A stretch of DNA of 64,000 nucleotides. Source: Ipomoea triloba (Eukaryota; Streptophyta; Magnoliopsida; Solanales; Convolvulaceae). The position numbers and the translations under genes were made by a program. The stretch covers positions 19,628,020 through 19,692,019 of the forward strand of contig NC_044918.1 in assembly GCF_003576645.1 (NCBI RefSeq), written 5' to 3'. Below the pieces are notes generated by a model. That model made no database searches. It saw only the letters and a program-made list of their open reading frames with translations, and was not told the origin of the DNA. The number at the start of each line of letters is the position of its first letter. Positions within the stretch are counted from its first letter, which is position 1. Shown here piece by piece: positions 1-53,559 of the stretch.

Positions 1-202
1 TCTCGAACTAACCCAAACTCGTGCTAACTAAAAGGGGATAACATTTCCGCTGCGCATAAAACTTTGTCTTCACCTCGTGAGGTATCGAACCTAAACATCC
101 TAAGTTCAATACACACGAGAGGTCGAAAAGATTTGCAAAATCTTATACAAGTCTATTCACCCCCCCTCTAGACTTGTACCCCATCCCCTTGGGACCAACA
201 AC
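1..202 (+). mobile_element. Possible 3' edge of an LTR retroelement remnant
   Basis: The window opens in sequence that is more GC-rich than the satellite that follows. It ends in a C-rich stretch and then gggaccaaca, after which the AT-rich repeat array begins. LTRs of plant Ty1-copia elements often end in a similar C-rich stretch followed by ..CAACA. No primer-binding site follows and the left part lies outside the window, so this is only a tentative call. Confidence 0.3.
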
Positions 203-3200
203 ATTTATCTTTTATTACTGGTCACTAACAGGTAATTACACCGTGATGAACTAAATTGACATGTTTATACACCTAATTGCAACATTAAAAATTTTGAGAG
301 CCTAATTGATTTTTCAGGTAATGTTCAATGGCCTATTTCACACATTTTATGCAAAAAGAGTGACATTTACATTTACCTGTTATTACAGGTCATAACAGGT
401 AATTATGCCTTGATTATTAAACAGGTATATTTATGTACCAAATTGCAACTTTAAATAGTTTGAAAGCCTAATTGATGCCTATTTGACACATTTTATGCAA
501 AAAAAGAGACATTTAAATTTACCTGGTATTACAGGTAACTAACAGATAATTACACATGATAAACTAAATTGATAAGTTTATGTACCTAATTGCGACTTTA
601 AAAAGTTCGAGGCCTAATTGATTTTTCTGGTACAGTTTGATGGCTTATTAGACACATTTTTTGCTAAAAATGTGACATTTACATTTACCCGTTATTACAT
701 GTCACTACCAGATAATTATGCGTTGATAAATTAAATTGGTATGTTAATGTACCAAATTGCAACTTTAAATAGTTTGAAAGCATAATTGATGCCTATTTGA
801 CACATTTTATGCAAAAAAAAAAAGACATTTTAATTTACCTGGTATTAGAGGTCACTAACAGGTAATTATGTCCTGATGAACTAAATTGACATGTTTATGT
901 ACGTAATTGCAACATTAAAAACTTTGAGGGCCTAATTGATTTGTCAGGTACAATTTGATGGCATATTAGCCACATTTTTTCTAAAAAATAGTGACATTTA
1001 CATTTACCTGTTATTACAGGTCACTAACTGGTAATTATGCCTTGATGAAACTAAATTGGCATTCTATGTACCCAATTGCAATTTTAAATAGTTTGAAAGC
1101 CTAATTGATGTCTATTTGACACATTTTATGCAAAAAAAAAATGACATTTAAATTTACCTGTTATATCAGGTCACTAACATGTAATTATGCCTTAAAAAAC
1201 TAAATTGACATGTTTATGTACCTAATTGCAATTTTAAAAGGTTTGAGTGCCTAATTGATTTTTCAGGTTTGAGTGCCTAATTATGCCTATTAGACACATT
1301 TTTTGTTAAAAAAAATGACATTTACATTTACATGTTATTACAGGTCTTTAACAAGTAATTATGCCTTGATAAACTAAATTGATAACAAGTAATTATGCCT
1401 TGTTAGTAATTATGCCTTGATAAACAGGTAATTATGCATTGATTATTAAACTGGTATGTTTATGTACCAAATTGCAACTTTAAATAGTTTGAAAGCCTAA
1501 TTGATGCCTATTTGACACATTTTATGCAAAAAAAAAAAACATTTAAATTACCTGGTATTACAGGTAACTAACAGATAATTACACATGATGAACTAAATTG
1601 ATATGTTTATGTACCTAATTGCGACTTTAAAAAGTTTGAGGGCTTAATTAATTTTTCAGGTAAAGTTTGATGACCTATTAGACACATTTTATGCTAAAAA
1701 AGTGACATTTACATTTATTGTTATTACAATTTACTAACAAGTAATCATGCCTTGATTAATTAAATCGGTATGTTTATGTACCAAATTGCAACTTTAAATA
1801 GTTTGACAACCTAATTGATGCCTATTTGACACAATTTATGCAAAAAAAGTGACATTTAAATTAACTGGTATTACAGGTCAGCAACAGGTAATTACGTCTT
1901 GATAAACTAAATTGATATTTTTATGTACCTAATTGCGACTTTAAAAAGTTTGAGGCATAATTTATTTTTTTAGTACAGTTTGATGGCTTATTAGACACAA
2001 GTTTTGCTAAAAATGTAACATTTACATTTATCCGTTATTACAGGTCACTACTAGGTAATTATGCCTTGATAAATTAAATTGGTATGTCAATGTACCAAAT
2101 TGCAACTTTAAATAGTTTGAAAGCCTAATTGATGCCTATTTGACACATTTTATGCAAAAAAAAAAAGTGACATTTTAATTTACCTGGTATTAGAGGTCAC
2201 TAACAGGTAATTATGTCCTGATGAACTAAATTGACATGTTTATTTACGTAATTGCAACATTAAAAAGTTTGAGGCCTAATTGATTTGTCAGGTACTGTTT
2301 GATGGCATATTAGCCACATTTTTTCTAAAAAAATTGACATTTACATTTACTTGTTATTACAGGTCACTAACAGATAATTATGCGTTGATGAACTAAATTG
2401 GCATTCTATGTACCCAATTGCAACTTTAAATAGTTTGAAAGCCTAATTGATGTCTATTTGACACATTTTATGAAAAAAAATGACATTTAAATTTACATGT
2501 TTTTACAGATCACTAACATTTAATTATGCCTTAAAAAACTAAATTGACATGTTTATGTACCTTAATTATGCCTTAAAAAACTAAATTGACATGTTTATGT
2601 ACCTAATTGCAATTTTAAAAGGTTTGAGTGCCTAATTGATTTTTTAGATAAAGTTCGATGGTCTACTTGACACATTTTATGCAGAAAAAATGACATTTAC
2701 ATTTATCTGGTATTACAGGTCACTAACAGGTAATTATGCTTTGATAAACTAAATTGACATGTTTATGTACCTAATTGCAACATTAAAAAGTTTGAGAGCC
2801 TAATTGATTTTTTTGGTACAGTTTGATTGCCTATTCAACACATTTTTTGCTAAAAAAGACACATTTACATTTACCTGTTATTACATGTCACTAACAGGTA
2901 ATTATGCATTGATAAACTAAATTGGCATNTTACCTGTTATTACATGTCACTAACAGGTAATTATGCATTGATAAACTAAATTGGCATGTTTATGTACCAA
3001 ATTGCAACTTTAAATAGTTTGAAAGCCTAATTGATGCCTATTTGACAGATTTTATGCAAAAAAAAAAAAAGTGACATTTAAATTAACCTGGTATTACAGG
3101 TCAGCAACAGGTAATTACGCCTTGATAAACTAAATTGATATGTTTACGTACCTAATTGCGACTTTAAAAAGTTTGAGGGCTTAATTGATGTACCTAATTG

Positions 3201-4675
3201 CGACTTTAAAAAGTTTGAGGGCTTAATTGATTTTTCTAATTGCGACTTTAAAAAGTTTGAGGGCTTAATTGATTTTTCAGGTACAGTTTGATGGCCTATT
3301 AGACACATTTTATGCTAAAAAAGTGACATTTACATTTACCTGTTATTACAGGTCACTAATAGGTAATTATGTCTTGATTAATTAAATTGGTATGTTTATG
3401 TACCAAATTGCAACTTTAATAGTTTGACAACCTAATTGACGCCTATTTGACACAATTTATGCAAAAAAAAGTGACATTTAAATTTACCTGGTATTACAGG
3501 TCAGCAACAGGTAATTACGCCTTGATAAACTAAATTGATATGTTTATGTACCTAATTGCGACTTTAAAAAGTTTGAGGCCTAATTGATTTTTTTGGTACA
3601 GTTTGATGGCCTATTAGACAAATTTTTTGCTAAAAATGTGACATTTACATTTACCTGTTATTACAGGTCACTACCAGGTAATTATGCGTTGATGAATTAA
3701 ATTGGTATGTTAATGTACCAAATTGCAACTTTAAATAGTTTGAAAGCCTAATTGATGCCTATTTGACACATTTTATGCAAAAAAAGTGACATTTTAATTT
3801 ACCTTGTATTATAGGTCACTAACAGGTAATTATGTCTTGATAAACTAAATTGACATATTTATGTACCTAATTGCAACATTAAAAAGTTTGAGGGCGTAAT
3901 TGATTTTTCAGGTACAGTTTGATGGCATATTAGCCACATTTTTTCTAAAAAAAAGTGACATTTACATTTACCTGTTATTACATGTCACTAACTGGTAATA
4001 ATGCCTTGATGAACTAAATTGGCATTCTATCTACCCAATTGCAACTTTAAATAGTTTGAAAGCCTAATTGATGTCTATTTGACACATTTTATGTAAAAAA
4101 AATGACATTTAAATTTACCTATTATTACAGGTCACTAACATGTAATTATGCCTTAAAAACTAAATTAACATGTTTATGTACCTAATTGCAATTTTAAAAA
4201 GTTTGAATGCCTATTGATTTTTTAGATAAAGTTCGATGGTCTACTTGACACATTCGATGGTCACTAACAGGTAATTATGCCTTAATAAACTAAATTGAAA
4301 TGTTTATGTACCTAATTGCGACATTAAAAAGTTTGAGAGCCTAATTGATTTTTCAGGTACAGTTTGATGGCCTATTAGACACATTTTTTGCTAAAAAAGT
4401 GACATTTACATTTACCTGGTATTACAGGTCACTAGCAGGTAATTACACATGATGAACTAAATTGATATGTTTATGTACCTAATTGCGACTTTAAAAAGTT
4501 TGAGGGCTTAATTGATTTTTCAGGTACAGTTTGATGGCATATTAGACACATTTTATGCTAAAAAAGTGACATTTAAATTTTCTTGTTATTACAGGTCACT
4601 AACAAATAATTATGCCTTGATTAATTAAATCGGTATGTTTATGTACCGAATTTCAACTTTAAATAGTTTGAAAGC
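203..4675. repeat. AT-rich satellite array with alternating ~150/~167-bp monomers
   Basis: Tandem degenerate units carry the landmarks ggtcactaacaggtaatta, ctaaattgacatgtttatg, cctaattgcaacttt and gacatttacatttacctg. Two monomer types alternate. One has 'accaaattgcaactttaaatagtttgaaagcc' features (broken here for length: accaaattgcaac / tttaaatagtttgaaagcc) and a poly-A run after ttttatgc. The other has gtacctaattgcgac, then agtttgagggcctaatt and a tcaggtacagtttgatgg block. A pair repeats about every 310-330 bp. Copies differ by point changes and small indels, and partial units (for example near 1380-1440 and 3180-3260) show local re-duplication. No coding potential is visible. Confidence 0.9.
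2871..2987. other. Assembly join: single N flanked by a 58-bp exact duplication
   Basis: The 58 bases at 2871-2928 are repeated exactly at 2930-2987, separated by one N at 2929. This is the pattern of a contig join or collapsed gap inside a tandem array rather than a biological duplication. The true array length is therefore uncertain. Confidence 0.75.
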
Positions 4676-4677
4676 CG

Positions 4678-5250: not shown

Positions 5251-5382
<132 letters not shown>

Positions 5383-5425
5383 ATGTCAGATTTAACCAAC
5401 GATTTCCATCTGAACGAACGAGGTT
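5383..5425 (-). pseudogene. 43-bp shard of the NLR gene
   Basis: The 43 bases after the poly-C run are identical to 18925-18967, inside the LRR-side coding part of the second NLR gene, and then diverge abruptly. This is either a relic of a third gene copy or a misjoined read end; the adjacent N and poly-C favour caution. Confidence 0.7.
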
Positions 5426-5582
5426 ATAATCTGCTATTTAGTTAATTCAAAAGATTCTATGAGCGATTATTGGTAAAATCTACTAATACAATCTACCTAC
5501 TATATACTAATAGCTTACCAATTTTTCATTTTTTATTTTTTATTTTGAAGACAATTGCTTACCAATTAATCTGCTAACTACT

Positions 5583-6215
5583 AATTCTCAAACTAAATCT
5601 TTTTTTTTTTTGAAAACCAAAGGAAAGATCATATATTAATGAGGAAGTAAATCAGAGATACAAGCAGGAGGGGTAGTCACTCACGAACCAATGACAGACA
5701 AAGAATCAGTTGCCCTAGCAAGAGTTTGAGCCACATGATTCGCTGACCTTCGGATATGACAAACAGAAACGTTTCTAATATCCATAGCAATATGACGACA
5801 TTGCTTAACAATAGCACCAACATACGACAAGTCTAAAGAAGCATAATTAAAAGCAAAACAAAAGTTTGAACAATCTGTTTCAAAAATTACATTATTATGA
5901 CCCGAGCTCTTGAGCCAAGTGAAAGCTTCCTTTACCGCCATTGCCTCAGCAAGATAAGGATCATTCCCGCAATTCAAATGACCAGTAACCGCCGAAACAA
6001 AATGCCCATGATGATCACGAAGTACTGCTCCATAACCAGCCCCATCTCCAAAAATTGCTGCATCCACATTACATTTAAGCTTGTGAGTTGGTGGTGGCAT
6101 CCAATTACTAGCGGCAGTAGTATCACAAACCACAAAACTTGGCAATAAGCTTTGCTTCCACGTAGAACAGTACAACTCCACATGCCTATATAGCCCAGCC
6201 AATTCTCAAACTAAA
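5583..6215 (-). mobile_element. 5'-truncated LINE insertion with 15-bp TSD
   Basis: The 15-bp sequence aattctcaaactaaa occurs at 5583-5597 and again at 6201-6215. Between them, on the minus strand, lies a retrotransposon RNase H reading frame followed by non-coding DNA and a 3' poly(A) of 12 (seen as T at 5600-5611). Long variable TSD, 3' poly(A) and 5' truncation are the hallmarks of target-primed non-LTR insertion. The insertion point is about 80 bp beyond the stop codon of the first NLR-PP2 gene, so it may lie in that gene's 3' UTR. Confidence 0.9.
5681..6200 (-). pseudogene. LINE RNase H (RVT_3-type) C-terminal fragment
   Basis: The frame is open from the truncation point to a stop at 5681, about 172 codons, with no ATG at its upstream edge. 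It reads as a plant LINE RNase H: a WMPPPTHKLKCNVDAA block with the first Asp, GYGAVLRD, an AEAMAVKEA block with the Glu, and ETDC with the second Asp. The usual last Asp in the N-x-VAD-x-LAR block is Gln here (NHVAQTLAR), so the domain is probably inactive. Reverse transcriptase and endonuclease are absent, removed by the 5' truncation. Confidence 0.85.
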
Positions 6216-6292: not shown

Positions 6293-6873
6293 TCAGCTAG
6301 GTCGAACCTCAATGCCTTTGACAATGAGACCAGACTTCCAAGTCGCGATTGTATTCCAAAGTCGCATTTCGACCTCACCTTCATTTGTTGAACTAATGTA
6401 AAAATCTCCGAGCTTAATCTCCATCCACCCATCAAGGCGACGGTTCGGAAACCGGCCAGGGCCTTTAGAAAACCTTCTTTTTGTTAAAAATACTTGACAA
6501 CGTTGATTCTCACTAAAACTTCTTTTATTCTTGATGTATCTCACGTATGTGAATGCTCTATCGAGCTGGCGATGGTAGGGCTTCCATTCAAGTTTGAAAA
6601 TAAGGTATGCAGAGTAAGAAGTGTTTTCGTGCAGGCGCCTGGTGTCCAACTTTCCTTTGATCTCGAGCCAGGAAACGGCCAGAAGTACTACAACCTCATG
6701 TCTGCACACGTTGTAAAGGGGAATTGTACTATATACAATTCTTTTACAAAAATCGGTCAAATTAGAGAACAAAAATGAGAGATTAATGCATACCCGGAGT
6801 CCCAAGTCCAACTCCAATACTGAGGATTGTCCTCGTGTGGGATGTAGAGACTTCTTGCTTCGAGGAAAACACT
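6293..6873 (-). other. PP2 (Nictaba-like) domain exons of NLR copy 1
   Basis: There are two exons, 6873-6794 (80 nt) and 6701-6293 (409 nt). The acceptor ATGCAG|AGTG and donor TCCGG|GTATGC bound the first; GTGCAG|ACATG opens the second. Phase is conserved (codon split GG|A, giving Gly). PP2 domains bind chito-oligosaccharide or N-glycan ligands in studied members. No F-box, the usual partner of plant PP2 domains, precedes it. Confidence 0.75.
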
Positions 6874-9829
6874 CTGCATGCATATATAGCAAAAGATTTG
6901 CAGATTTGCTTTTACAGTTGGTCAAGTTCGATCACAAGAGGTAGAATAATATATATAATAAAACGGAAATAATTAAAAAGCTTATTAAGGGTAGGTGGAT
7001 GGAATCACCATTTTTCTATCTTCTGCTAACGAGTGACAGAGAGGGAGAGAGACCTGAGTGAGTGTACATAACTTTTGATCTTCATCTATTTCAGCATACA
7101 AAATAGGAATAAAGGTGGAATTATTTAAAGTATGTAGGAAATAAAATGCCACATTTTGGAAAATAAGAAATCAAACCAATTACTGCAAGCTAAGGGAGAG
7201 AGAGACCTGCTTGAGTGTGAAATGCAAATTCTCCTTTCCACTCACGCTGCTCTTTTTCAATCATCCTGGCAGATTTCACAAGGGAAGCATGGCAATGCTC
7301 CAACTGAACTGACTTCAGATTATTAAGGTTTTCAATCCAACTTGGCATCGCTTCTAACTCAAAGCAATTTCTCAATACTAAGCGCTCAAGGACTTGGAAT
7401 GTATACTCACCATCATCAGCCAGCTCCCATTGCTTCAATTCCATAACAGAAATTAGCAAAACCTTCAATTGAGGGAACCCCCTCTCTACACTTAGTTTCC
7501 ACTCTTGTCCCACACAGGCATGATTCTTGAGTTTTAGCACCTCAAGATTGGGCAACATACTGATAACGTTCATAGCTTCCCACGGAATGAGAGTTTTTGC
7601 AAAGGTAATCTCCTTGAGGTTTTGTGGAAAAGTACTGGACTGCAGTTCTATAGGACGATAGGTGCCCTGAACTTTTAGCTTCTCCAGCTTTTTTAAGCAG
7701 TTAAGATCATCTAAACAACGGTGGGATATGCATCCTTGGGCGATTATTCCCAACTCCTTAACATTTGGAATCCTCGAAAGCACTTGCTTTGTGCACTGAA
7801 CACATTGCAACCAGTACATTGTTTGCAGATTTACTTGAGCCACTTCTGGAGTATACATTGGAATTAGCTGATGGTATAACTGAAGGTGCCTTAATTGTGG
7901 TAACTCCCATATTCCACAAGGTAGCTTACAGACACCATTGATATCCTCACGAATAACAAGTGTTTGCAGATTCCGATTCCTGCTCACTGGTATGGAAGTG
8001 AGCAGCCGGTTTGAGGCTAAAGCTAGATATCTGAGAAGAACTACTTCTATAATATCTGAAGGTATACTTCCATTGTAGTCAACTAAAGTTAAGTCCAGCA
8101 CTCTTAACATCTTAAAAGAGTAGGCTGTCATCTGAGCAATTTTGGTTAGAGAATTTAAATCCCAATCAGAAACATCCCATTGAGGATCATTCCATTTACG
8201 CATATCAAAGCATAAAATGGAACGGGATTTTTTCAAAGCAGGTAAGTGAAGAGAATCCTGAGATGCTATTTTAAGACTTAACCAACGATTTTCATCTGAT
8301 TCAATAGAGTAACCATATTTACTGCTGCACAGAAGTTTCTCTGTTTTAGCCTTGCTTGCACACAGCTCATGCAATAGGTCATGCATCTTACATGTTTCAA
8401 CTTTTCCATTACTGCTTCGCTCACTTACCATAATCAGGCTTCTATTCATAAGCTCCTTCAAATAACCTTCACCTGATTCTTCTAACGTCTCTTCACTCTC
8501 ATTTTTTTCTTTTATGAATCCCTCGGCAATCCATAACCTAATCAACTTTTTAATTCCAATCTCACTATCTTCAGGATAAGCTCCTAAATATAGAAAACAA
8601 CTCTTCAAATGGCAAGGTAAGTTATTGTAACTCAGACTGAGTATTCTGGAAATTTGTTCAGACTGCTTTTTATTCACCAATGAGTTTAAGGTTGATTCAA
8701 CACTCTCCCACTCATGTACTGCCCTATTGGCGGATAGATGTCCTGCTACCACCACAACTGTAAGTGGTAATCCTCTACAATTCTCAACAATTTTCCTCCC
8801 TATCCTTTCAAATTCTTTGTTCAAACTTTCTCTACCCAAAAACTTTTGACAAAATAGAGTCCAACTTTCAACAAAATTTAAAAAGCGCATGTCATGTAAA
8901 TTATCAGAACAAGCATATTTAGATACCTCTTCGAGTCGAGTAGTCAACAGTATTTGACTGCCAGTGTTTTCAACCTCACTTGGAAAGCATCCCTTCACAT
9001 CATCCCATGCGCCTTTAGTCCATATGTCGTCCACAATAATTAGATATCTGTGGCCCAGTAAACTTTTGCGCAGTAGGTCTGCTAGCTCCCCATCGTTCAT
9101 AGTGCTAATGTCATCGCGCATTGGCATGACGGAACGACACAGTTGAAGGAGCACTAGCCTCTTATTATGCTCTTGAGACATGGTTGCCCAACCACAACGG
9201 TTCTTGAAGCGAAGCTTGACTGCAGAATCATTAGCAAGTTTTCTTGCAAATGTCGTCTTGCCAATACCGACAAGGGACATAACTTGCAATGGTTTATTCG
9301 AGGATACAAGCTTTTTCTTCAACTCCTTGAATTCTTCGGTTTGCCCTACCATGGTCACGTCTTCAGATTTTGAAGCATGTTGGGAGGATGATGAACTCTC
9401 CTCTGGATGTTGAGTTGGCAAACCTTTTGCTGTTCGTGCCTTAATCATCAGGATCAGACGTTCAACATCTTTAAGTAGGCGCCTCAAGGTTACATCCAGC
9501 ATCTGATGACGAATCTCTACTAGCTCTGCTTCAATGTCAGATTCTGCTTCGAGAGCTAGTCTAAATTGTGTCATCATTGGACCATCATCCACTACTAGCT
9601 CTGCTTCAATGTCAGATTCTGCTTCCAAAGTTACTCCTCCAATTTTTGCAATCAGCTCCTCAAAATTGTGGGCTTTCTTCTCAGATTGGTCAAGCAAGGT
9701 TTGCAAAGAGGCAAGCTTTTCGCCAAGAGAGTGGATAAGTTGTTTGTCATATAGAATGAGACGGGGATTGGGTTGGAGGAACTCAAGCTCTAGTGTTCGC
9801 ATCAAAGAAGTTAATGCAACACAAGCCAT
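6293..9829 (-). CDS. CC-NLR with C-terminal PP2/Nictaba-like domain, copy 1
   Basis: Predicted intracellular immune receptor of the R1/late-blight-like CNL class fused to a phloem-protein-2 lectin-type domain. Inferred exons are 9829-7207, 7085-7009, 6873-6794 and 6701-6293, 1062 aa in total; all junctions keep frame. Exon 1 has an N-terminal helical domain (about 1-140), then an NB-ARC with GIGKTT (188-193), RYLIIVDDIW (261-270), ILLTTR (293-298), CRGLPL (351-356) and MHD (482-484), then LRRs to about 874. The linker exon encodes 26 residues starting DEDQ and ending DRKM. The last two exons encode the PP2 fold: SVFLEARSLYIPH, QYWSW, SWLEIKGKLDTR, YSAYLIFKL, DGWMEIKLGDFY and IEVRPS. The P-loop lacks three residues present in copy 2. 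If the first donor is not used, the NLR stops at 7190 (879 aa) and the PP2 exons have no visible own start. Confidence 0.7.
9517..9625 (-). repeat. 75-bp in-frame duplication in the NLR copy 1 N-terminus
   Basis: 34 identical bases occur at 9517-9550 and 9592-9625, offset 75 bp. The protein therefore reads LEAESDIEAELV twice (residues 68-79 and 93-104). Copy 2 has the block once, so copy 1 gained 25 residues in the coiled-coil region. Confidence 0.9.
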
Positions 9830-9940
9830 GACTCACTCTTAGCTTCTACAAACTATAATTAATTATATATTTCTGTATGTGTATTGCAGGAACTCAATCT
9901 CGCTCTAAGCTGTGGAGAATGAGATATTGGCTTTGGAGTG

Positions 9941-9948
9941 TATTTATA
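9941..9948 (-). promoter_or_regulatory. TATA box of NLR copy 1
   Basis: On the minus strand the sequence reads TATAAATA, about 112 bp upstream of the ATG at 9829, within AT-rich DNA. It has the usual plant TATA sequence and a reasonable spacing for a short 5' leader. Confidence 0.6.
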
Positions 9949-9949
9949 A

Positions 9950-10470
9950 AGACTGAACACACAACTGCAAAATAAATTTGTTGCTCAAACTTGTCGACAC
10001 AAAGTGGACTCGCAAAAAATTAAATTCCAATTCAGCCATTTTTTAAAGATAAATGCAGTTGACATTTTTTTAGCACGTTTAGCACTCATCATAATCAATA
10101 ATAATAAAGGAAAATGATAGTTTTAGTCTATCAATTATACACATTGTATACTCGGTTCATGAATTATTACCATATACATATTTTCCATTTTAATCAGTTA
10201 TTTGACTTGGTTAAAAATCAATGTTTAGTTAATAAGCTTTTTGTAACTCCAAAGACCAAAATACTAAATTTCAAAAGGCTACTAAAACAACTTTTTCAAT
10301 TAGCCTTTTGAGAAAAGAAATTATACCAAATACTTTTCTACAATCAACTAATATTATCAATTAATTATACATTCTAACCCAATCAGCTAACAGCATCATC
10401 GGCTAATAGTCATTTACTAAACAGGGCCTTAGTCTGTTGGTAGTTTATTCTGACTTAGTCTTGTGGCTTT
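9950..10470. other. AT-rich upstream region of NLR copy 1
   Basis: No gene is visible. It holds the distal promoter of the NLR and AT-rich DNA with no recognised element until the MITE target duplication at 10471. Confidence 0.5.
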
Positions 10471-11107
10471 GTTGTAACTGGCAAATTATGCTGTGGACCC
10501 AGGTCCACCTTGCAAGGTGGACCTGGGTCCAAAACTACGTCGTTTTTGTCTCTCTTCTTCTTCTTCTTTTTTTTTTTTAAATTAGTAAACATATTGCTGA
10601 ATATAGAGTTGTTCAAAAATGTGTGAATGTAGAGGTTTCAAAGTGTGAATGTAGAGTATAGGAATCGTGAATGTACAGTCATGATTGTGTGAATGTAGAG
10701 TTGTCCAGAAATGTGTGAATGTGAAGGTTTCAAATTGTGAATATAGACTATAGAAATCGTGAATGTAGAGTTATGCATGTGTGAATCTGTAATAGATTTT
10801 AGAAGTTCTAGCAACTTGTAGCCTTGTAATGTGTGAATGTGAAGTTTTCAAGTTGTGAATATGGAGTATAGGACCTGTGAATATAGAGTTTTGAATGTGT
10901 GAATGCATAACAGTGGTAATATAGTTACTAAACATATAATCTTGTAATGTGTGAATGTAGAGTTTACAAACTGTGAATGTAGAGTATAGTGTATGTGAAT
11001 GTGGAGTTTACAAAATGTGAATGTAGAGTATAGTGTATGTGAATGTAGACCCAGGTCCACCTTGCAAGGTGGACCTGGGTCCACGGCATAACAATTGGTT
11101 GTAACTG
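10471..11107. mobile_element. Palindrome-capped MITE with 10-bp TSD
   Basis: A 617-bp element (10481-11097) lies between two copies of gttgtaactg (10471-10480 and 11098-11107). Each end has a short terminal inverted repeat (gcaaattatgctgtgg left; ccacggcataacaattg right) followed by a perfect 36-bp palindrome whose centre is CCACCTTGCAAGGTGG. The interior is a degenerate array of gtgaatgtagagt-like units. The 10-bp TSD suggests mobilisation by a Mutator-like transposase; no coding region is present. Confidence 0.85.
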
Positions 11108-11726
11108 ATTCCCTCTTAATAAATTTTTAAAAAATATATAAAAAAAAAAATCTCTGCGGGAGGGATACGGTTGAGAAAAGCCCAAAAAAAAACTTCATTT
11201 TTCACAATTTAAATTGGTACATTTTGAGAATTAATTTCTCATCCAATCACTATCTATTTTGAACGTAAAATATATCAAATTAACATACATCTCACATAGA
11301 AGAATTTTAATACACTTTAACCCGATCTAAATCATAAGTGAATCACACTGAAAACTATACCACAAAATTACCCCTTTAAATGACCATTTATCTAACTTTT
11401 CCAACAATCAATCCATAATTGTTGAGAGTTAATTTGACTTGGATTTACCCTGGCGTTGACAACATGTTTTTTTATTTGACAAAGTGGATCATACACGCAA
11501 CAGTTATTGAAGAAGAAAATAATAGCTAATTTTTTTTTAATTTTAAAAACCAAATATTTTACACTTTGCAAGTTTGCATAATGTAAATTTATAATATAGG
11601 AGTTGACGGATCTTCTTAAGATGAGATTCTACAATAAATTAGTCCCATCAAGTAGAATTAATATTAATATATAAATACTAAACATTAATAAGTTATGGTG
11701 CAAAAATAAACAATGCAATAATATAT
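11108..11726. other. AT-rich intergenic DNA
   Basis: No coding region, RNA gene or bounded element was recognised. Confidence 0.5.
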
Positions 11727-11957
11727 AGGGTTGTTTTGGATCAAATCGAAATTTAGATGCATGTGCCATGTGCACATATTATAAAAGATTAGAGCAAATT
11801 AACAATTCATTGTTTAAAAACAGCTCAGGACTTTTCAAAAAAAAAAAAAATACAGCTCATGAAATGAAGATGATGATGAAGGAAAATTAACAATTCATTA
11901 TTTAAATTAAATACACTTAATACAGTTATACACAGCTCATGAAATTTTAAATAAAAC

Positions 11958-12017
<60 letters not shown>

Positions 12018-12156
12018 TAGGTTTGTTTTGGATAAAATCAAAATTTAGATGCATGTACCATGTGCACATATTATCAAAGATTAGGGCAAATTAGCAATTC
12101 ATTGTTTAAATACATGCTGCTCATTACTTTTCAAAAAGAAAAATACAGCTCATGAA

Positions 12157-12218
<62 letters not shown>

Positions 12219-12831
12219 TGACAGGATAATTGGGTACCCGACCCGAAACCACTGGCAGGATCCAAAAAGCAAGACAGTTGTCGTTCAAACTACTCAAGAC
12301 ACCTCACTCCTCAGCATCAATGCTCAACGGTTCAACTCCTCAGCATTGATGCCCAACGTTCAGCTCCTCAGCATTGATGCCCAACGTTCAACTCCTCAGC
12401 ATTGATGTCCAAACGTTCAGCTCCTCAGCATTGATGTCCAACGTTCAGCTCCTCAGCATTAATGCTCCATTACTGAGCTGAAGGAAATAAAAAGGCTCAC
12501 AACGCAAAGTAGAGGCACAACACTTGAACTTAGACAAAACACATACTGAACTCATTTGTACACTGAGCACTGCACTCAAACATTGTACTATCATAACATT
12601 CAAATAATATATCCGGTAACACTTTATTACCGTCAATAATAATAAAAGGTTTGTTTTGGATCAAAACAAAATTTAGATGTTGAACCAAAAAAAAAAAATC
12701 AAAATTTAGATGCGTGTGCCATGTGCACATATTATCAAAGATTAGGGCAAATTAACAATTCATTGTTTAAATACACGCAGCTCATGACTTTTCAAAAAGA
12801 AAACTACAGCTCATGAAATTTTAAATAAAAC

Positions 12832-12884
<53 letters not shown>

Positions 12885-13000
12885 TAATAATAAAAAGGTT
12901 TGTTTTGGATCAAATCAAAATTTAGATGCGTTTGCCATGCATGTGCACATATTATCAAAGATTAGAGCAAACTAACAATTTTATAGCTCATTTTAAATTG
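11727..13000. repeat. Four degenerate tandem units each ending in (AAT)n
   Basis: Units start with aggtttgttttggatcaaa near 11727, 12017, 12647 and 12896. They contain atgtgcacatattatcaaag and tacagctcatgaaat, and the first three run into AAT microsatellites at 11959-12016, 12160-12218 and 12832-12892. The second unit is split by an insertion at 12219-12635. The fourth is incomplete. Confidence 0.85.
12219..12635. mobile_element. Probable solo LTR or TRIM inside an AAT tract
   Basis: This 417-bp foreign segment starts TGACAGG and ends CCGTCA (TG..CA boundaries) and interrupts an AAT microsatellite, so the target duplication cannot be fixed exactly. It contains six 28-bp tandem copies of ctcctcagcattgatgcc-type sequence (12307-12466) and a TATA-like aataaaaagg. 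The boundaries and single copy fit a solo LTR, but no internal domain confirms it. Confidence 0.5.
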
Positions 13001-13510
13001 CTAGTATGGTGTACAATTTATTTGGATATGAGCTTATTAAATTTTATGCATAATTGTTCATAATTAAAGCATGTGTTACGTTCCATCTCAACCAAAAGCC
13101 TTCAAATCCATGACCTTTTGCATAGCTCTGATACCAAATTAAAGCATGTGCTCCATCGCAACTAAAAGTCTAAACTGATAGTTGGACTGCACATATTATA
13201 TTTGTGCTCACATTCACTAGCATAATTCTATGTTCTCTAACCGATAAAAAACTGATAGGACTTGATAATTCCCCCTCTTAGCATTAGGAGTTTTAACTAC
13301 ACCGTGTTTTTATAAGTTACCATCATATAATTGGTTAAAATTAAATCGCTTGGGATCCACAATAGTTAATTTTATAAGTTACCATCAATTAAGCGATTTC
13401 CATCTGATGTGGTTGAATTCAACCCACAATAATGCGATACTATTGATGGCGCGGCGTTTTTTAAAAGAAAAAAAGAATTATAGCTTTTCATAATAATAGT
13501 ATATAATCTA
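13000..13510. other. AT-rich DNA with a retroelement PBS-like scrap
   Basis: No gene is visible. gctctgatacca at 13127-13138 is the complement of a copia-type primer-binding site and suggests an old minus-strand retroelement remnant. Confidence 0.4.
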
Positions 13511-13512
13511 TA

Positions 13513-15080
13513 TCTATACCTATACTATATATAAAAGTAAAATTCTCCTATTTCATTTCCCGCCCAAACTTTTGTAGTCAGTTAATTAAATATTTTATGG
13601 CTAAAGTGTCATCTAGCACCATGAACTATATCCAATTATTCATGCCGCACACTGAACTTTCATATCGTATAAATCGAGCCACAAACCAAAAAAATAAATT
13701 CACCTAGAACTTTTAGCAGGTTTCCCTTTCTTCCTGCTGACATGACGCATGTTTCCAACTGATGTGGCATTTCTTTTAACCTTATGTTGTCCATGTAAGC
13801 ATTTATATATTAAAAATAAAAATTAAAAAAAAACAACAAAAGACAAAAACAAAAACCGAAGACCAAAAAAAAGCATTTCTATAAATTTGGAAAATTGAAA
13901 AAATACTAAAACAAAAAATTAGTCAAAAAACATAAATTCTGAAAAAAAAAATTTGAAACATCGGAATTGCAAAATTGAAAAGTATACATTATGAAAATAA
14001 AGATAAGAAAATTTTGGTTATTTTAATATAATAATTTTGTTTTTTTTTTTTAAATTTTAAATATGTAAGCGCTTACATGGAGAATATAAGGTTAAGAGAA
14101 ATGCCACATCAGACGCCATGTCAGCAGGAAGATAGGGAACCTACTAAAAGTTCTAGGCGAAATTTTTTTGTTGGTTTGTGGCTTGATATATGCGATATGA
14201 AAGTTCAGGATGCGGCATGAATAATCAAATATAGTTCATGGTGCTAGATTACACTTTAGCCATATTTTATTGACTAAATAATTAGTAAAGCTTATTTGGT
14301 AATTATAAGAAAAATAATTTATTAATTATTATTTACACCAATAATAATTCGAATACTTATATATACTTCTATATATATACTACTATTAATAAAAATAAAA
14401 TAATCATTTGTGAAATTCCCGCCCAAACAATAGTAAAGATAAAATGAAAAAGAAAAACCGATATTACTAATTGATTAAAAAAATATAAAAAGATCTTAAT
14501 CTATACTATACATAAAGTAAAATCCTCCTATTTCAATTCCCACACAAACTTTTGTAGTCAATTAATTAAATATTTTATTGGTCAAATAATTAATAAAGCT
14601 TATTTGATAAGAAAATGTAAAATAAAATTAACTAATATATATTAATTAGTAATATTGTTTTTATATTCACGTATCAATACTATTAATAAAAGCAAAATCC
14701 TCCCCATCAACTTTCCCGCACAAACTAATATTATTAATTAATTGGTAAAAAATTAATAAAGTTTCATTGGTAACAAAATTTTATTTACCAAATTTTGAGA
14801 ATAAATAAACCATTATAATTTTTAAATAATGGAAACAAATTCTGCGTAATTTTATAAGAAAAAAAATATTTATTAAAATTATTTACACCAATAATAATTC
14901 GAATACTTATCTATACTACTATTAATAAAATTAAAATCATCATTTGTGAAATTTCTGCCCAAACAATAGTAAAGATAAAATGGGAAAGAAAAGTTGAGTA
15001 ATAATAATTACCGAATAATTATTATGGTAATTAAGCTAAGCATGGGTTATTGAATTTATTTTTATAATAATTATAATTAA
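13513..15080. repeat. Five tandem copies of an AT-rich 120-235-bp unit
   Basis: Units begin near 13525, 14379, 14502, 14678 and 14913 with ctatactat..aataaaagtaaaatcctcc-type sequence. They share cccgcccaaact, then gtagtcaattaattaaat and taataaagcttatttgg. The first copy is split by the fold-back element at 13599-14261. The family was not identified. Confidence 0.75.
13590..14270. mobile_element. Mutator-like fold-back MITE with 9-bp TSD
   Basis: The element is 663 bp (13599-14261), with inverted arms of roughly 210 bp starting GGCTAAAGTGTCATCTAGC. Target duplication atattttat lies at 13590-13598 and 14262-14270. The paralogous unit at 14500-14640 has the same target uninterrupted (atattttat at 14570-14578), an empty site that confirms the boundaries. 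TSD length and long TIRs fit a MULE-type non-autonomous element. Confidence 0.9.
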
Positions 15081-16155
15081 ATTATTTCTCATTTTTCCTA
15101 TATTTATTTTAGTAATAATATAATTACATAAGTCATATTAGATATTGATCTTTTTAAGATAATTGTAGACAATCAAGCCATATATTATTCAATTAATTGG
15201 AGTAATGCTTTTGTACTAATCATATAATCAAATAAATGTACACTTTCAATATTAGAATTTTTGTAATTTTATCTTTATTTTTATTATCTAAATATATAAT
15301 AAAAAAATTTATTTGTGTATCGCATGAGTAATTGGACAATTATTTGCTTTAATTCAAGCAAGGAAAACATCAGAAAACATAATCAATCCAACCAATTTCA
15401 TCAATTGTGCAATATAATATTCGATGTTATAATTCATATAATTATATATCGATCCAAATATTCTTAAAATATTATAACAAACGGGCGAAAATATTAGTAA
15501 TAATAATAATAATGCACGTGGCATGTAAGGCAACCCTAACTTGTTCAGGTAAAAATAAGTTATTGTATTGCTAGAGGACTTTTATAAGTAAAAAACATTA
15601 GAAAAACAAATTTGTCTATCATCCAATAACAAAATTATTGTAAATAAATAGATGTGTATATGCCAATGACGGGAGTGGGTTCGAGTAGTTATGAACAGAT
15701 ATTACATTGTAACAGATTTGTATCTCTGATATATATTGGGTTAAGCAATGAATAATAATAAACATTTATGATTTTCTCTCTTACTATGTTATAAGTTGTT
15801 ATATCTAATTAATAATTATCTATTGCACACTATTTATGTGAGGAAACATCTCAATTTACAATTAAAAAAATCATTTTAAACCAAAACTAATTATTGTTTC
15901 AATTTGATAAGAATTTTTACATTGAGCATTAATTTTGAGAACATATTATTTTCACTACGTGACGAAACATATGTAAATATGTGTGTGTGTTTTTTTTTAA
16001 AAAGATCAAGTAAAGAAGAAAAACAATACCTCATAATTATAATGTAAAAATGTAATTTAACAAAATAATTTGAACCAAATACGATTATATAAATATGTTA
16101 ATTGTATTATAGATAACTTGAATTGGACGCTCTGTAAAGTAAAGAAAGTTGGTAG
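15081..16155. other. AT-rich intergenic DNA
   Basis: No coding region or bounded element was recognised in about 1 kb. Confidence 0.5.
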
Positions 16156-16675
16156 GAATAATTTTGAGTTAATTCCAGTAATGGTCCTCCGACTATGTTA
16201 ATTTTTTAAAATTAGTCCCCGACTTTTAATTTGGACAATTTAGGTCCCTTGACTTTCAAATTCTTTCCAATGTTGGTCCTTTCGTCAAATTTTGGTTAAA
16301 TTGAGGTCAAATGAAGAGGTAAAATTGTCCGTTCACATGCTTAGTGTATTATTACTCGTATTTCTCCTATCCTATACGCTGTATATATGAATATAATCTC
16401 AGTCGAAGTCTCAACCGAAGTCATATAATCTCATTTGATGTCTCTTCAACTGATATTATATTCATATATATAGCGTATAGGACAGAAGAAATACGAGTAT
16501 ATAAGTGAACGGACAATTTTACCCCTTTATTTGACCTCAATTTAACCAAAATTTGACGAAATGACCAACATTGAAAAGAATTTGAAAGTCAATGGATCTA
16601 AATTGTCCAAATTAACTAATTTTGGAAAATCAACATAGTCGGAGGACTATTGCTGGAATTAACTCGAATAATTTT
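16156..16675. mobile_element. Mutator-like fold-back MITE with 10-bp TSD
   Basis: The 500-bp element at 16166-16665 starts gagttaattccagtaatgg and ends with the inverted counterpart; arms of about 170 bp pair almost throughout. The 10-bp duplication gaataatttt is at 16156-16165 and 16666-16675. It ends 45 bp beyond the stop codon of the second NLR-PP2 gene, so that gene's 3' UTR may run into it. Confidence 0.92.
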
Positions 16676-16719
16676 GGTTTGGGTTTCATCATAACAATAA
16701 ATTAACTTAAAATTGTTCC

Positions 16720-17281
16720 TCATATAGGTCGAACCTCAATACCCCTAACAATAAGGCCAGACTTCCAATCTGGTTCAGTGTTCCAGAGCCTCATTTGGAC
16801 CTCACCTTCATTTCCGGAACTAACATAAAAATCTCCCAGCTTAATCTCCATCCAACCATCCGGGCGACAATCTGGGAACTGGCCAGGGTCTCCAGAATAC
16901 TTAGATTTTTCTAAAAACACCTGACAACGTCGATTCTCACCGTAATTTCCCTTGTCATTGAGATACTTTACACAAGCGACTGCCGTCTCGAGGCGTTCTG
17001 ACAGCGGGTCAAGCTTGAAAACTAAGTATGCAGAGTAACAAGTGATTTTGCTTAGGCAGCCGGTGTCCACCGTTCCTGTGATCTCAAGCCAGCATACGTT
17101 CACAAGTTCTGCAACCTCATGTCTGCATATGTAGAATTATATTATTGTAAACCGGTCCAATCAAAACTCAAATTAGAGGGTCAAGTGGAAAGATTACTTA
17201 CCCGGAGTCCCTAGTCCACATCCAATACCGACGACTGTTCACGTGTGGGATGTATAGACTTCTTGCATCAAGGAATACACT
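16720..17281 (-). other. PP2 (Nictaba-like) domain exons of NLR copy 2
   Basis: Exon 17281-17202 is 80 nt, the same length as in copy 1; exon 17122-16720 is 403 nt. The intron between them has a consensus donor (GTAAGT). The conserved W residues of the PP2 core (RYWMW, VCWLEI, DGWMEI, LWNTEPDWKSG) are all present, so the fold is probably intact. Confidence 0.78.
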
Positions 17282-20200
17282 CTGCACAACAAAACATTTC
17301 CAAAATTGCTTTTGCTTTTGGTCAAAACTCAAAATCACGCCACAATATATATATATATAATGAGTGACTGGGTGAGTCTCCCTTGGAGACTGTCTTACTG
17401 GACTGACTCATAAGACACATCTGATCAAATTCAGATGAAAAATGTAATACTAATGAAGAAAAAAATTATCCTTTTTATAAAAAAAAAATTGAGAAAATAA
17501 AAAGTTCAAGGTGGAATCACCATTTTTATATCTTTCTCGTTCTTTTGCTCATCGAAGATTTCATCAATCTGTTCCGCATCATTACTCTTCTGATCCTCTT
17601 TGATCTCCTCTCCCTGGCTATTGTTTTGATCTTCATCTTGGAATAAAGAATATATACAGTATATTTTTATAAGGGAATGTAGGATACAACTTAGAGTACT
17701 CAGATCATTTTGGAAAACTCGGCCCACCAATTAAACTGTGTGGACCATATTATATTCAGAGAAAGTATAGCATTCAGTATAAGAAATTATAATCTAAACA
17801 GCACTACGTGTACAATGCCTTACTGCAACTAAGGTAGATAGTAGATTAAATGAGTGAGAGGGATTGAGAGATGAGACCTGATTGAGTGTAGAATTCAAGA
17901 ATATTAAATGCGCATTCTTCTCCGCAGCACTCACGTTGCTCTTTTTCAATCATCCTGGCAGAAGTCACAAGGGAAGCATGGCAATGCTCCAACTGAACTG
18001 ACTTCAAATTACTAAGGTTTTCAATCCAACTTGGCATCTCTTTCAACTCAAAGCAATTTCTCAATACCAAGCGCTCAAGCTTTGGGAAAGGATGATCATC
18101 ATCAACATCATCCGCCAGCTCCCAATGCTTCAAATCCATAACAGAAATGAGCAAAAGCTTCAATTCAGGGAAGCCCCTCTCCACAGTTAGTTTCCACTCT
18201 TGTCCCACACAGGCATGGTTCTTAAGTTTTAGCACCTCAAGCTTGGGCAGCATACTGATAATGTTCATAGCTTCCCAGGGCATTACAGTTTTTGCAAAAG
18301 TAATGTTCTTGAGGCTTTGTGGAAGAGTATAAGGCTGCAGTTTTACAGGACAATAGCTGCCCTGAACTTTTAGCTTCTCCAGCTTATTTAAGCAGCTAAG
18401 ATTATCCAAGAAGCAATGATGGCATCTACATCCTTGGGCAAGTATTCCCAACTCTTTAACATTTGGAATCCTCAAAAGCACTTGCTCCTCTGTGCACTGT
18501 AAGCATTTCAACCAATACATTGTTTGCAGATTTAGTTGAGCCTCTTCTGGAGTATACATTGGAATTAGCTGGTGGTATAACTCAAGGTGCCTTAACTGTG
18601 GCAACTCCCATATTCCGCGAGGTAGCTTACGGACACCACTGATATCTTCACAAATAATAAGTGTTTGCAGATTCCAATTCCTCCACACCCGTATGGAGGT
18701 CAGCAGCCGGGTTGAGGCTAAAGCTAGGTATCTAAGAAGAACTATATCGGAAGGTATACTTCCAACATAGTCAAGTGCAGTTAAGTCCAACACTCTTACC
18801 ATCTTAAAACACTCGGCTCTCATCTTAACATAGTTGACTCGCAAATACCGATCACGCCTATCAAAGCATAAAATGGAACGAGATTTCTTGGAAGTAATGC
18901 TCAAATGATGAAGTTGAGATACCAATGTCAGATTTAACCAACGATTTCCATCTGAACGAACGAGGTTGTTATACTTATCATCATGTCCACTGCTGTCTCT
19001 AGTACACAGAAGTTTCTCTGTTTTAGCCTTGCTTGCACACAGCTCATGTAATAGATCATGCATCTTACATGTTTTAACTTTGCCATTACTGCCTCGCCCA
19101 CTTATCATAATCAGGCTTCTATTGATGAGATCCTTCAAATACTTTTTGCCTGTTCTTTCTAGCGTGGTCGTCTCTTCTTCTTCTATGAATCCCTCAGCAA
19201 TCCATAACCTAATAACCCTTTTAATTTCAATCTCACTATCTTCAGGGAATACTCCTAAATACAAAAAACAACTCTTCAAATGGCAAGGCAAGTTGTTGTA
19301 ACTCAAATTCAGTATTCTGGAAAAGTGTTGATACAGATCTAAATTCACCAATGAGTTTAAGGTTGATTCAACACTCTTCCACTCATCCACAGCCATCTTG
19401 GCAGATAGATGTCCTGCTAACACCACAATTGTGAGCGGTAATCCTCGACAATTCTCAACAATCTTCCTCCCTATCGTTTCAAAGTCTTTGTTCAAACACC
19501 ATTGGATTTTCACACAAAATAAATTCCAACTTTCATCACAATCTAAAAAACGCATCTTATAACATAACTTACTGGAACAGGCATAGCTAGCTACCTCTTG
19601 GAGCCGAGCAGTCAATAGTATTCGACTGCTAGTCCCGTGCTCAGGAAAATATGTTTGGATATTATCCCATGCATCAGTGCTCCATATGTCATCCACAACA
19701 ATGAGATATCTCCGTCCCTTTAAACTTTTTTGCAGTTGTTCCGCTAGCTGATCATCGGTCCGAGTTTTAAAGTCATCGCGCATTACTGGCATCACAGAAC
19801 AACAAAGATCAAGGAGCACTTGCCTCTTATTGTGCTCTTCAGTTATGGTTACCCACCCGCAACAGTCGAAATAAGATCTCACTGCACAATCATGAAAAAT
19901 TCTTCTAGCAAAAGTTGTTTTCCCAATACCTCCCATACCAACCACCGCCATAACTTTTCGCGGTTCATTATTCGACAATGGAAGGAGCAGATCTTTGAAC
20001 TCCTCGAATTCTTTGTAGTGCCCTACCATTGTGTCCTCAAATTTTGAAGTGTAGTGTTGCGAGGACGATGATTGGCTGCCAGGTGATGATGATAGACTCC
20101 CCAAATGTTGAATTTTTTGGAAATCTTTAGCAAGGTCATGATTGTGGGCGTTCTTAGTCATCTCCATCAGTTGTTCAACGTCTTCAAGTACGCCACTTAA

Positions 20201-20470
20201 GGTTCGATCCATTGTCTGCAGACGACGAATCCCTGCTACCTCTGCTTCAATGTCATATTCTGCTTTCGAAACTACTCGTCTAATTTTTGCTATCAGATCC
20301 TCGCAATTGTCAGCTTTCTTCTCCGATTCCTCAAGAAACATCTGAAGAAAGCCAAGCTTTTCGTGGAGAGACTTGATATGTTCTCTATTTTTTAGAGCTA
20401 GACGTGGATTGGATTGCAGGAACTCAAGTTCTATCGTCCGCATCAATGAAGTTACAGCCACACAAGCCAT
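16720..20470 (-). CDS. CC-NLR with C-terminal PP2/Nictaba-like domain, copy 2
   Basis: Paralogue of the gene at 6293-9829, same strand and exon structure. Inferred exons are 20470-17878, 17636-17521, 17281-17202 and 17122-16720, 1063 aa with every junction in frame. The NB-ARC motifs are complete: GMGGIGKTT (178-186), RYLIVVDDIW (254-263), ILLTAR (284-289), GLPL (343-346) and MHD (470-472). LRRs follow to about 864. The linker exon is 39 residues, strongly acidic and Gln-rich (DEDQNN..EKDIKM). The PP2 part begins SVFLDARSLYIPH and RYWMW, then NVCWLEITGTVDTG, YSAYLVFKL, DGWMEIKLGDFY and IEVRPI. Splice sites include CAATCAG|GTCTCA, TCCGG|GTAAGT and ATGCAG|ACATG; the weakest is the linker donor AAAATG|GTGATT, conserved in both copies. 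Without the first splice, the NLR alone would stop at 17846 (874 aa). Confidence 0.72.
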
Positions 20471-28120: not shown

Positions 28121-28456
28121 TGAAAGGTTTTGTCTAATAAGGAGATGAAAGGTTTTGTCCAATAAAAGTCCAAACCTGTCATTTTCATTTGGGAGACAAA
28201 CCATTTGTGGTACAAACAACTGTAGGAAGACATTTGGGATTTCTGCTGCATTGATGGTCTGCAGCTATTTAAGGACCTCAACCTCTCACTGCTCAAACAT
28301 TCAGTCTCATACACCATCCAGAGAGTATAGAGTAAAAGTGAGGGAAAAATACAGTTCACTCAAGCAAAGGCAGCACTCAACACAGTTCATTCAGGCAACA
28401 ACAAACACCAACTATGGCTGGAGGTTAGATCCTATATTATTCAGTTTTAATTTACA
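28121..28456 (+). repeat. 5' LTR of the copia element
   Basis: 336 bp, TG..CA ends. It has a short internal duplication of its first 25 bp and a TATA-like ctatttaagg near 28264. It also carries an ATG at 28414 that may be the polyprotein start. Confidence 0.95.
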
Positions 28457-34400: not shown

Positions 34401-34754
34401 ACTACTTCTACTATGGAAGCCGAGTTCGTTTCTTGTTTCGAAGCTACTTCGCAAGGTGTGTGGCTTAAGAATTTCATCTCTGGGCTTAGAATTATGGATT
34501 CTATATCTAAGCCGTTAAAAATCTATTGTGACAACTCAGCTGCAGTCTTCCTAACTAAGAACGACAAAAGTGGGAGTCGAAGCAAACACATCGACATCAA
34601 GTTCTTAGCTATTAGGGAGCGTGTTAAAAGAGAAATTGTGGTCATTGAGCACATTAGTACTGAGTTGATGATAGCAGATCCCTTGACTAAAGGCATGCCT
34701 CCATTTAAATTCAAGGATCTTGTTGAAAAGATGGGACTTTCGCCCAATTTGTAA
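28414..34754 (+). CDS. Copia gag-pol polyprotein (spliced model)
   Basis: Retrotransposon polyprotein: gag, protease, integrase, reverse transcriptase, RNase H. The frame from ATG 30531 to 34754 is open (1407 codons), but its first 40 residues are hydrophobic and unlike gag. A better start is the LTR ATG at 28414: exon 28414-28423 joins acceptor 30651|30652 in frame, giving MAGATLPVTQ.. as gag N-terminus. Unspliced, that ATG meets a stop after four codons. Domains (numbered from 30531): gag UBN2-like 50-250; zinc knuckle CFFCKKKGHMKKDC near 283; protease WWIDSGSTIHI near 328; GAG-pre-integrase LWHRRLGH near 469; integrase core with DDFSRF, SDRGGEY and SPDQNGVAERRNRT; RT with YVDDILLA near 1082; RNase H YSDADFAG near 1252. 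No frameshift or stop breaks it. Confidence 0.9.
28457..30650 (+). other. Long copia leader, probable intron, with GC-rich insert
   Basis: After the PBS there is about 2.2 kb without a conserved reading frame. Positions 28750-29050 are markedly GC-rich (many ggcg and cggcg blocks) in an otherwise AT-rich leader, as if a piece of host gene or another element had been captured. Downstream, cccacagg recurs three times (about 30320, 30390, 30515). The leader ends at a good splice acceptor, actctttacag at 30641-30651. Confidence 0.55.
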
Positions 34755-35025
34755 TTTGTATACATTCAGTTTTAATGAAATTCTTTTGCATTCAGAAAAT
34801 TTTCTCATTTTTTGTGTACACTTTAAATTCATTGAGAAAATATTTAGGTTGGATTTGAAATAAACATATGGTTTATTTTCATTAAGTTTTTCTTGTTTCC
34901 TAATTAAGTACTTGAAAGCAGTTTGCATTTGATCATAATGGATATTACTCGCACTAATGAAAACATATCATTATGGTTGGTGTTATTCTATTCTTTAAGT
35001 TTAATGTTTGCACCAAGTGGGAGAA

Positions 35026-35361
35026 TGAAAGGTTTTGTCTAATAAGGAGATGAAAGGTTTTGTCCAATAAAAGTCCAAACCTGTCATTTTCATTTGGGAG
35101 ACAAACCATTTGTGGTACAAACAACTGTAGGAAGACATTTGGGATTTCTGCTGCATTGATGGTCTGCAGCTATTTAAGGACCTCAACCTCTCACTGCTCA
35201 AACATTCAGTCTCATACACCATCCAGAGAGTATAGAGTAAAAGTGAGGGAAAAATACAGTTCACTCAAGCAAAGGCAGCACTCAACACAGTTCATTCAGG
35301 CAACAACAAACACCAACTATGGCTGGAGGTTAGATCCTATATTATTCAGTTTTAATTTACA
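35026..35361 (+). repeat. 3' LTR of the copia element
   Basis: Identical to the 5' LTR over 336 bp by direct reading. Confidence 0.95.
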
Positions 35362-53435: not shown

Positions 53436-53497
53436 GGTTAAGTGATGAAGAAGGAAGGAAGAGAGAATTGCAGAGATTGTGCAGATAGGGTGAGGAG

Positions 53498-53504
53498 TTA
53501 TATA
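53498..53504 (-). promoter_or_regulatory. TATA box of the HyPRP gene
   Basis: Minus strand TATATAA, 63 bp upstream of the chosen ATG (53435). Confidence 0.7.
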
Positions 53505-53559
53505 GAACAGTGAGCTGAGTCGGTGAGTGTGAGTACAGAAAACAAACAAAATGCCCTAA

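Follow-up and report, generated by a model that had tools for sequence, protein, structure and literature searches.

A 64,000-nucleotide stretch of the Ipomoea triloba genome (contig NC_044918.1, positions 19,628,020 to 19,692,019; hereafter the window) carries, on its minus strand, two tandem genes for nucleotide-binding leucine-rich repeat receptors (NLRs), and our analysis confirmed the observation of an earlier sequence-only reading that both appear to be joined by splicing to a C-terminal PP2/Nictaba domain. Our best explanation, to which we give about even confidence, is that these are NRC-related sensor NLRs spliced through a linker into a C-terminal Nictaba-type lectin, which is bait for an effector, with signalling via NRC-type helpers. 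What our sequence analyses establish of this explanation is the NLR-PP2 architecture, the recurrence of that architecture in Ipomoea gene models, and the selection on PP2, together with the modelled fold. A transcript would run from the NLR exon through a linker exon, probably the old terminal exon of the NLR, into the lectin exons. The lectin domain, held on a flexible linker, would act as bait for a pathogen effector whose targets are Nictaba-like defence lectins; effector binding would release the NB-ARC domain, which would then signal through NRC-type helpers. Because Trp15 in the sugar pocket is often changed, the lectin domain may owe its retention to its surface or to a changed ligand, and not to N-acetylglucosamine (GlcNAc) binding.

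We found the donor shortly before the NLR stop codon, the linker exon, and the two PP2 exons in matching phase at the predicted places in both genes (Table 1). All six introns have GT-AG borders, and the joined coding sequences of 3189 nt (gene 1) and 3192 nt (gene 2) are open with a single stop each, reproducing the proposed products of 1062 and 1063 aa. In both genes the linker exon opens with GATGAAGATCAA over a phase-1 junction and ends with AAAATG|GTGATT. The public I. triloba protein P0001 (1061 aa) corresponds to joined gene 2 minus two residues, with all three introns present. This difference reflects a tandem acceptor, as P0001 uses the acceptor 6 nt downstream (17630 versus 17636) and has DQ where the proposed linker opening is DEDQ. 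P0001 is designated isoform X2, a name that hints at more than one predicted transcript for gene 2 and at possible transcript evidence behind the model.

A Pfam search of the NLR, linker, and PP2 frames identified NB-ARC (3.8e-52 in gene 1, 4.9e-54 in gene 2) and the winged helix WH_DRP in exon 1 and PP2 in the last exons (7.5e-29 and 7e-26), all far above the curated cut-offs. The Pfam matches to leucine-rich repeats (LRRs) were below cut-off in both genes, and P0001 has no LRR mark. We counted the LRR part of an NLR with an integrated domain as present in both, based on the PF23598 marks of their relatives (27 of 29 Ipomoea matches) and on the predicted structure of P0001, which aligns with NRC2 over 941 columns. 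As had been claimed for the PP2 exons, no F-box was found by Pfam in any of these scanned frames, nor is one marked in P0001. A tblastn search with the joined proteins (E 1e-3) found no additional NLR or PP2 copy in the window.

TABLE 1 Exons of the two NLR-PP2 genes and an apparent intron of a public gene 1 model (window coordinates)
Feature	Position	Strand	Basis
Gene 1 exon 1, coiled-coil (CC)-NB-ARC-LRR, residues 1-874; P-loop shortened to VGIGKTT	9829-7207	-	Pfam and joined frame
Gene 1 linker exon, ending in ATG (26 aa; net charge -2)	7085-7009	-	Joined frame
Gene 1 PP2 exon a (80 nt; entered in phase 0, left in phase 2)	6873-6794	-	Joined frame
Gene 1 PP2 exon b, including stop	6701-6293	-	Pfam and joined frame
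Gene 2 exon 1, CC-NB-ARC-LRR, residues 1-864; P-loop GMGGIGKTT intact	20470-17878	-	Pfam; same as P0001
Gene 2 linker exon, acidic (39 aa; net charge -10), with tandem acceptor	17636-17521	-	Joined frame; linker exon of P0001 begins at 17630
Gene 2 PP2 exon a, 80 nt	17281-17202	-	Joined frame
Gene 2 PP2 exon b, including stop	17122-16720	-	Pfam and joined frame
88-nt GT-AG stretch, apparent intron in public gene 1 model P0034	7933-7846	-	Inferred from protein comparison

Two further features lie past the end of gene 1. A truncated LINE-like insertion (RNase H-like RVT_3, poly-A) at 5598-6200, flanked by 15-bp target-site duplications (5583-5597 and 6201-6215), lies some 80-90 bp beyond the stop of gene 1. 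At 5252-5370, 118 C and one N stand directly beside 5371-5440, which contains a 43-bp piece identical to gene 2 (18925-18967); the whole of 5252-5440 resembles an artefact of gap filling that includes a scrap of NLR sequence.

The nearest solved NLR by sequence was NRC3 (4.1e-113, the best among the 20 matches listed), with NRC2 also found, and the nearest solved PP2 relative was tobacco Nictaba (8ad2, 1.6e-36). An AlphaFold2 model of P0001 built from 24 sequences had a mean predicted local distance difference test (pLDDT) score of 71.7 and a predicted template modelling score of 0.66. In this model, the linker (residues 862-900, pLDDT <50) is predicted to be disordered and is followed by a separate beta domain at 901-1061 with weak loops at 984-991 and 1002-1007. 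A Foldseek search of the model against the PDB placed NRC3 (4.4e-54) and NRC2 (4.8e-52) on top and also matched Nictaba 8ad2 (5.6e-17, target TM-score 0.85), and the gene 2 PP2 is accordingly modelled as keeping the Nictaba fold. Rpi-amr1h was among the whole-protein matches listed for gene 1. Rpi-amr1h is NRC-dependent, and the sensors of the NRC network combine a degenerate N-terminal MADA motif with dependence on NRC helpers. By sequence, we place the NLRs of both genes in the NRC-related (R1-like) CC-NB-LRR group, nearest to the NRC superclade.

The same architecture recurs in relatives, as the earlier reading had proposed to check. A search with the PP2 region restricted to NLR-length proteins gave 33 matches from 160 candidates, 29 of which came from Ipomoea and bear the name late blight resistance homologue or LOV1; the Pfam marks of the other four were not those of NLRs. 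Both NB-ARC and PP2 marks were present in 13 of the 29, to which P0035 and P0036 add two more NB-ARC/PP2 proteins. The other 16 have no NB-ARC mark and are mostly I. batatas models of 589-840 aa that look 5'-truncated. Likewise, a whole-protein search with gene 1 returned at least 13 PP2 carriers, all from Ipomoea, among the best 120 of 180 matches. In total, the architecture is present in public gene models of four species: I. triloba, I. nil, I. batatas, and I. trifida.

Between gene 1 and gene 2, PP2 exons a and b are 85% and 74% identical, respectively, compared with 51%, 56%, and 65% for the introns, while the linker exon, at 63%, is conserved no better than the introns. For this one gene pair, the PP2 dN/dS was 0.38 (bootstrap 95% interval, 0.24-0.61; 0 of 2000 bootstraps ≥1), and those of the NLR halves were 0.47 and 0.55, with intervals overlapping that of PP2. 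The PP2 codons are under purifying selection. Synonymous distance fell to 0.23-0.26 at gene 1 codons 598-847 (0.23-0.29 over codons 533-847), compared with 0.29-1.14 in the remaining sliding windows, a pattern that gene conversion in this LRR stretch could have left.

Nictaba contacts GlcNAc through Trp15, which hydrogen-bonds O3 of the sugar, through the backbone of Ala40 and Trp41, and through Asp148, in a pocket lined by Thr14, Tyr21, Val39, Lys149, and Trp151 (PMC12355970). Trp15 and Trp22 matter in Nictaba mutants, and Glu145 has been placed in the site by modelling (PMC5767604). We aligned these sites in 38 Ipomoea rows, 30 of them fused, and 14 non-Ipomoea relatives, leaving out P0001 (whose PP2 is that of gene 2), P0009, P0019, P0030, and P0033 (not NLRs by Pfam), and P0031 and P0032 (partial PP2). 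Both window genes have Trp22, Trp41, and Trp151, but His at site 15 and Pro at site 14 in place of Trp15 and Thr14. Of the 30 fused rows, 12 retain Trp15 and 18 lack it, whereas 13 of the 14 non-Ipomoea relatives retain it. Site 145 is N, S, or H in all 38 Ipomoea rows, whereas 13 of the 14 others have E and one has D. On a 33-row tree, which like the PP2 tree below took in 10 of the alignment's 18 rows from I. batatas and I. trifida, site 15 requires three changes between W and not-W, the tree giving no direction (gain or loss).

These patterns bear on whether the integrated lectin might itself sense a glycan or glycoprotein, such as O-GlcNAc-modified or N-glycan-bearing proteins in the cytosol or nucleus, making a glycan-triggered NLR. 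The Nictaba fold retained in the predicted model, the Trp residues kept in Ipomoea (Trp22 in 38/38 rows, Trp41 in 33/38, and Trp151 in 31/38), and the fused rows with Trp15 would suit this explanation, which we nonetheless consider unlikely given the His at site 15 of both genes and the replacement of Glu145 throughout. A kept fold with a changed main GlcNAc contact favours an effector bait or an altered ligand over chitin-type glycan sensing, but it is an argument and not proof of lost GlcNAc binding, because retained Trp residues do not predict specificity (PMC5767604). Thus, of the original interpretation, the tandem NLR pair with a C-terminal PP2/Nictaba domain stands, whereas a glycan- or phloem-related function is less supported, considering both Trp15 to His and the grouping with single-domain Nictaba types described next.

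The PP2 tree had 45 rows: 30 from Ipomoea (22 fused and 8 short, one of the latter, P0145, counted as Ipomoea by its tree position), ten single-domain Nictaba types of other asterids, and five F-box PP2 proteins. All 30 Ipomoea rows formed one group (100/99), which adjoins the ten single-domain types (89/69), and the fused PP2s lie apart from the five rows named or marked as F-box PP2. An F-box PP2 origin was ruled out on this grouping and the lack of an F-box in the Pfam scan. All eight short Ipomoea proteins fall among the fused ones; four of them (P0143, P0146, P0147, and P0148) look like partial models because they have an NLR end and the linker at their N terminus. In a limited PP2 search (55 matches from 79 candidates; P0155, P0169, and P0170 among those left off the tree), no Ipomoea-named protein was shown outside the fused group.

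The claim that the PP2 exons have no start of their own is nearly correct, except that the final linker codon is an in-frame ATG directly before the PP2 exon, at the place where the Solanaceae single-domain relatives start. Two transcription units could therefore be imagined, an NLR ending at 7190 or 17846 and a short Nictaba-like gene starting from this ATG with the linker exon as its 5' untranslated region (UTR). The Solanaceae proteins beginning M-SVW/SAW here, the existence of PP2-only proteins in I. triloba (P0144 and P0150, of 175 and 187 aa), and the public gene 1 model lacking PP2 are in line with such an arrangement. However, P0001 and other models from the four Ipomoea species named above read through; the ATG is only partly kept in other fused members, with a T codon instead in P0003 (KT|S) and in P0015 and P0017 (LT|S); the gap between the NLR stop and the linker exon is just 104 nt in gene 1 and 209 nt in gene 2; and the short proteins lie inside the fused clade. 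We regard two units as very improbable, and a separate PP2 gene from the linker ATG was ruled out as the principal interpretation on account of the partly kept ATG and the read-through of the public models.

As to the NLR side, a 32-row tree (a quick method with long-branch warnings, including 20 chosen rows without PP2) placed the 12 fused rows in a group of 17 together with five rows without PP2. A single fusion event as a strict clade was rejected, since the tree needs three changes with the five PP2-less rows inside this group. One of the five, P0041, ends like an unspliced frame and may therefore be of either kind, and the other four (P0039, P0040, P0042, and P0045) continue past the NLR with PDEDHV-, PDYHHV-, or PDYHYY-like tails, so PP2 may be dispensable, or may never have arrived, in their branch. 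The tobacco protein P0062 ends GCEDEDHISQSFGGS, and the tail pattern matched 42 of the 106 proteins scanned. Because PP2-less relatives continue with a linker-like tail, the linker could be the NLR's old terminal exon, with PP2 added behind it and then lost or never gained in the PP2-less branch, although this is suggestive only; a linker derived from a former lectin 5' UTR appeared less likely, given these tails and P0062.

The same four relatives are also relevant to a partial fusion, in which retention of intron 1 or 2 yields PP2-less NLRs and splicing switches the bait on and off. This scenario is compatible with the bait explanation, and we hold it tentatively, as a minority possibility. 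Their linker-like ends, the tandem acceptor at the gene 2 linker, and the stops reached by the retained-intron forms (...GLSLP and ...GLISQSLSLI for intron 1; ...VIPP for intron 2 of gene 2) agree with it, but some stop is expected from any retained intron, and the scenario is read from sequence.

NLR and PP2 identities are correlated (r 0.64 across 66 pairs, a value reached in 0 of 9999 permutations). On the other hand, P0035 and P0036 are only 52-54% identical in PP2 to gene 2 and P0004, versus 75-85% in the NLR. An approximately unbiased (AU) test on 17 rows, using sets picked after the trees were seen, did not reject a clade of P0004, P0035, and P0036 (p 0.20), whereas the same three with gene 2 added were weakly rejected (p 0.03). 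A PP2 swap between NLR paralogues is suggested by these results but not shown. A broader history can be proposed with considerable reserve: the Ipomoea Nictaba-type lectin lineage may have been taken over by NLRs, giving one fused or fusion-derived clade with repeated Trp15 change after capture and PP2 modules exchanged between paralogues, so that a former glycan-binding defence lectin would now be an evolving effector bait. The PP2 tail might instead tune localisation, stability, or oligomerisation. Nictaba is nucleocytoplasmic according to a review and a dimer going by a cited title, and the linker is modelled as disordered, all of which would fit a tuning role. The variable sugar-pocket residues and the divergent PP2 of P0035 and P0036, however, look more like recognition than housekeeping, and we find tuning quite unlikely.

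Several observations weigh against the bait explanation. The public I. triloba model P0034 (636 aa) equals gene 1 over its first 632 residues, stops in the LRR, and has no PP2; its last four residues are explained by the inferred 88-nt intron of Table 1. The gene 1 P-loop lacks three residues relative to all 11 other fused members checked, including gene 2. In four close relatives the protein stops shortly after the NLR and has no PP2, the 12 fused rows with Trp15 may still bind glycans, and the fusion is drawn from sequence and gene models. Gene 2, whose P-loop conforms to GxGGxGKT while that of gene 1 does not, is the credible working copy, whereas gene 1 is doubtful because its P-loop is damaged and its public model is truncated without PP2. 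Only gene 2 is well supported as a fusion by the predicted proteins; gene 1 may be in decay or may function independently of nucleotide binding.

Sarris et al. (2016; PMC4759884) listed PP2 as an NLR integrated domain of S. bicolor, T. cacao, and Z. mays, and it is named among the earlier-reported ones (PMC6709784). The proteins of Sarris et al. are likewise NB-ARC proteins with Pfam PP2 as a non-canonical domain, but the main text of that paper does not mention Ipomoea (PMC4759884), and the Ipomoea fusions differ by description in their NRC-related NLR, Nictaba-type C-terminal PP2, and multi-copy state. Nictaba, the closest solved PP2 by sequence and fold, is a single-domain protein with Trp15, while the Ipomoea domain is fused to an NLR with His in its place. 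NRC2 and NRC3, similarly the closest solved NLRs, have no lectin domain in the solved chains among the matches seen, in contrast to the linker and lectin after the LRR in the Ipomoea genes. The Brassicaceae TIR-PP2 proteins also fuse a defence-related PP2 to an immune module, which is TIR instead of CC-NB-LRR (PMC12856790), and the grass NLR-jacalin proteins also pair an NLR with a lectin domain and are conserved across a plant family, but the lectin is of jacalin type and the lineage a different one (PMC4759884). Four Ipomoea species have been surveyed for NBS genes, and a term search of the main text of that survey gave zero mentions of PP2, phloem, or lectin (PMC9434374), and Ipomoea NLR-PP2 fusions are not described in the titles or abstract openings of the open-access literature searched. 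The NLR-PP2 kind is thus already known, and the Ipomoea family with its changed sugar site looks undescribed in that literature.

Elsewhere in the window, positions 201-4676 form a large satellite-like tandem-repeat block with many self-matches of about 68-94%. A Copia-type retrotransposon at 28121-35361 carries a 1407-aa frame without interruptions (30531-34754); the frame is flanked by two 336-bp repeats that are 100% identical and presumably represent the long terminal repeats of a recent insertion. Two adjacent frames at 41712-43453 match two halves of a Transferase domain (PF02458) and are probably one gene with an intron. Two hydrophobic-seed/lipid transfer protein-type frames lie at 48391-48816 and 52638-53549, the latter with an extensin-like part.

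If the bait explanation is true, it would name a natural bait, a defence lectin that is probably attacked by some pathogen of the sweet-potato family, and it would extend what is known of the composition of the NRC network by adding NRC-type sensors that carry an integrated domain at the C terminus. The family is multi-copy in Ipomoea, near a crop, and its siblings with and without the sugar-binding Trp, PP2, and an intact P-loop make the question of decoy versus glycan sensor directly testable.

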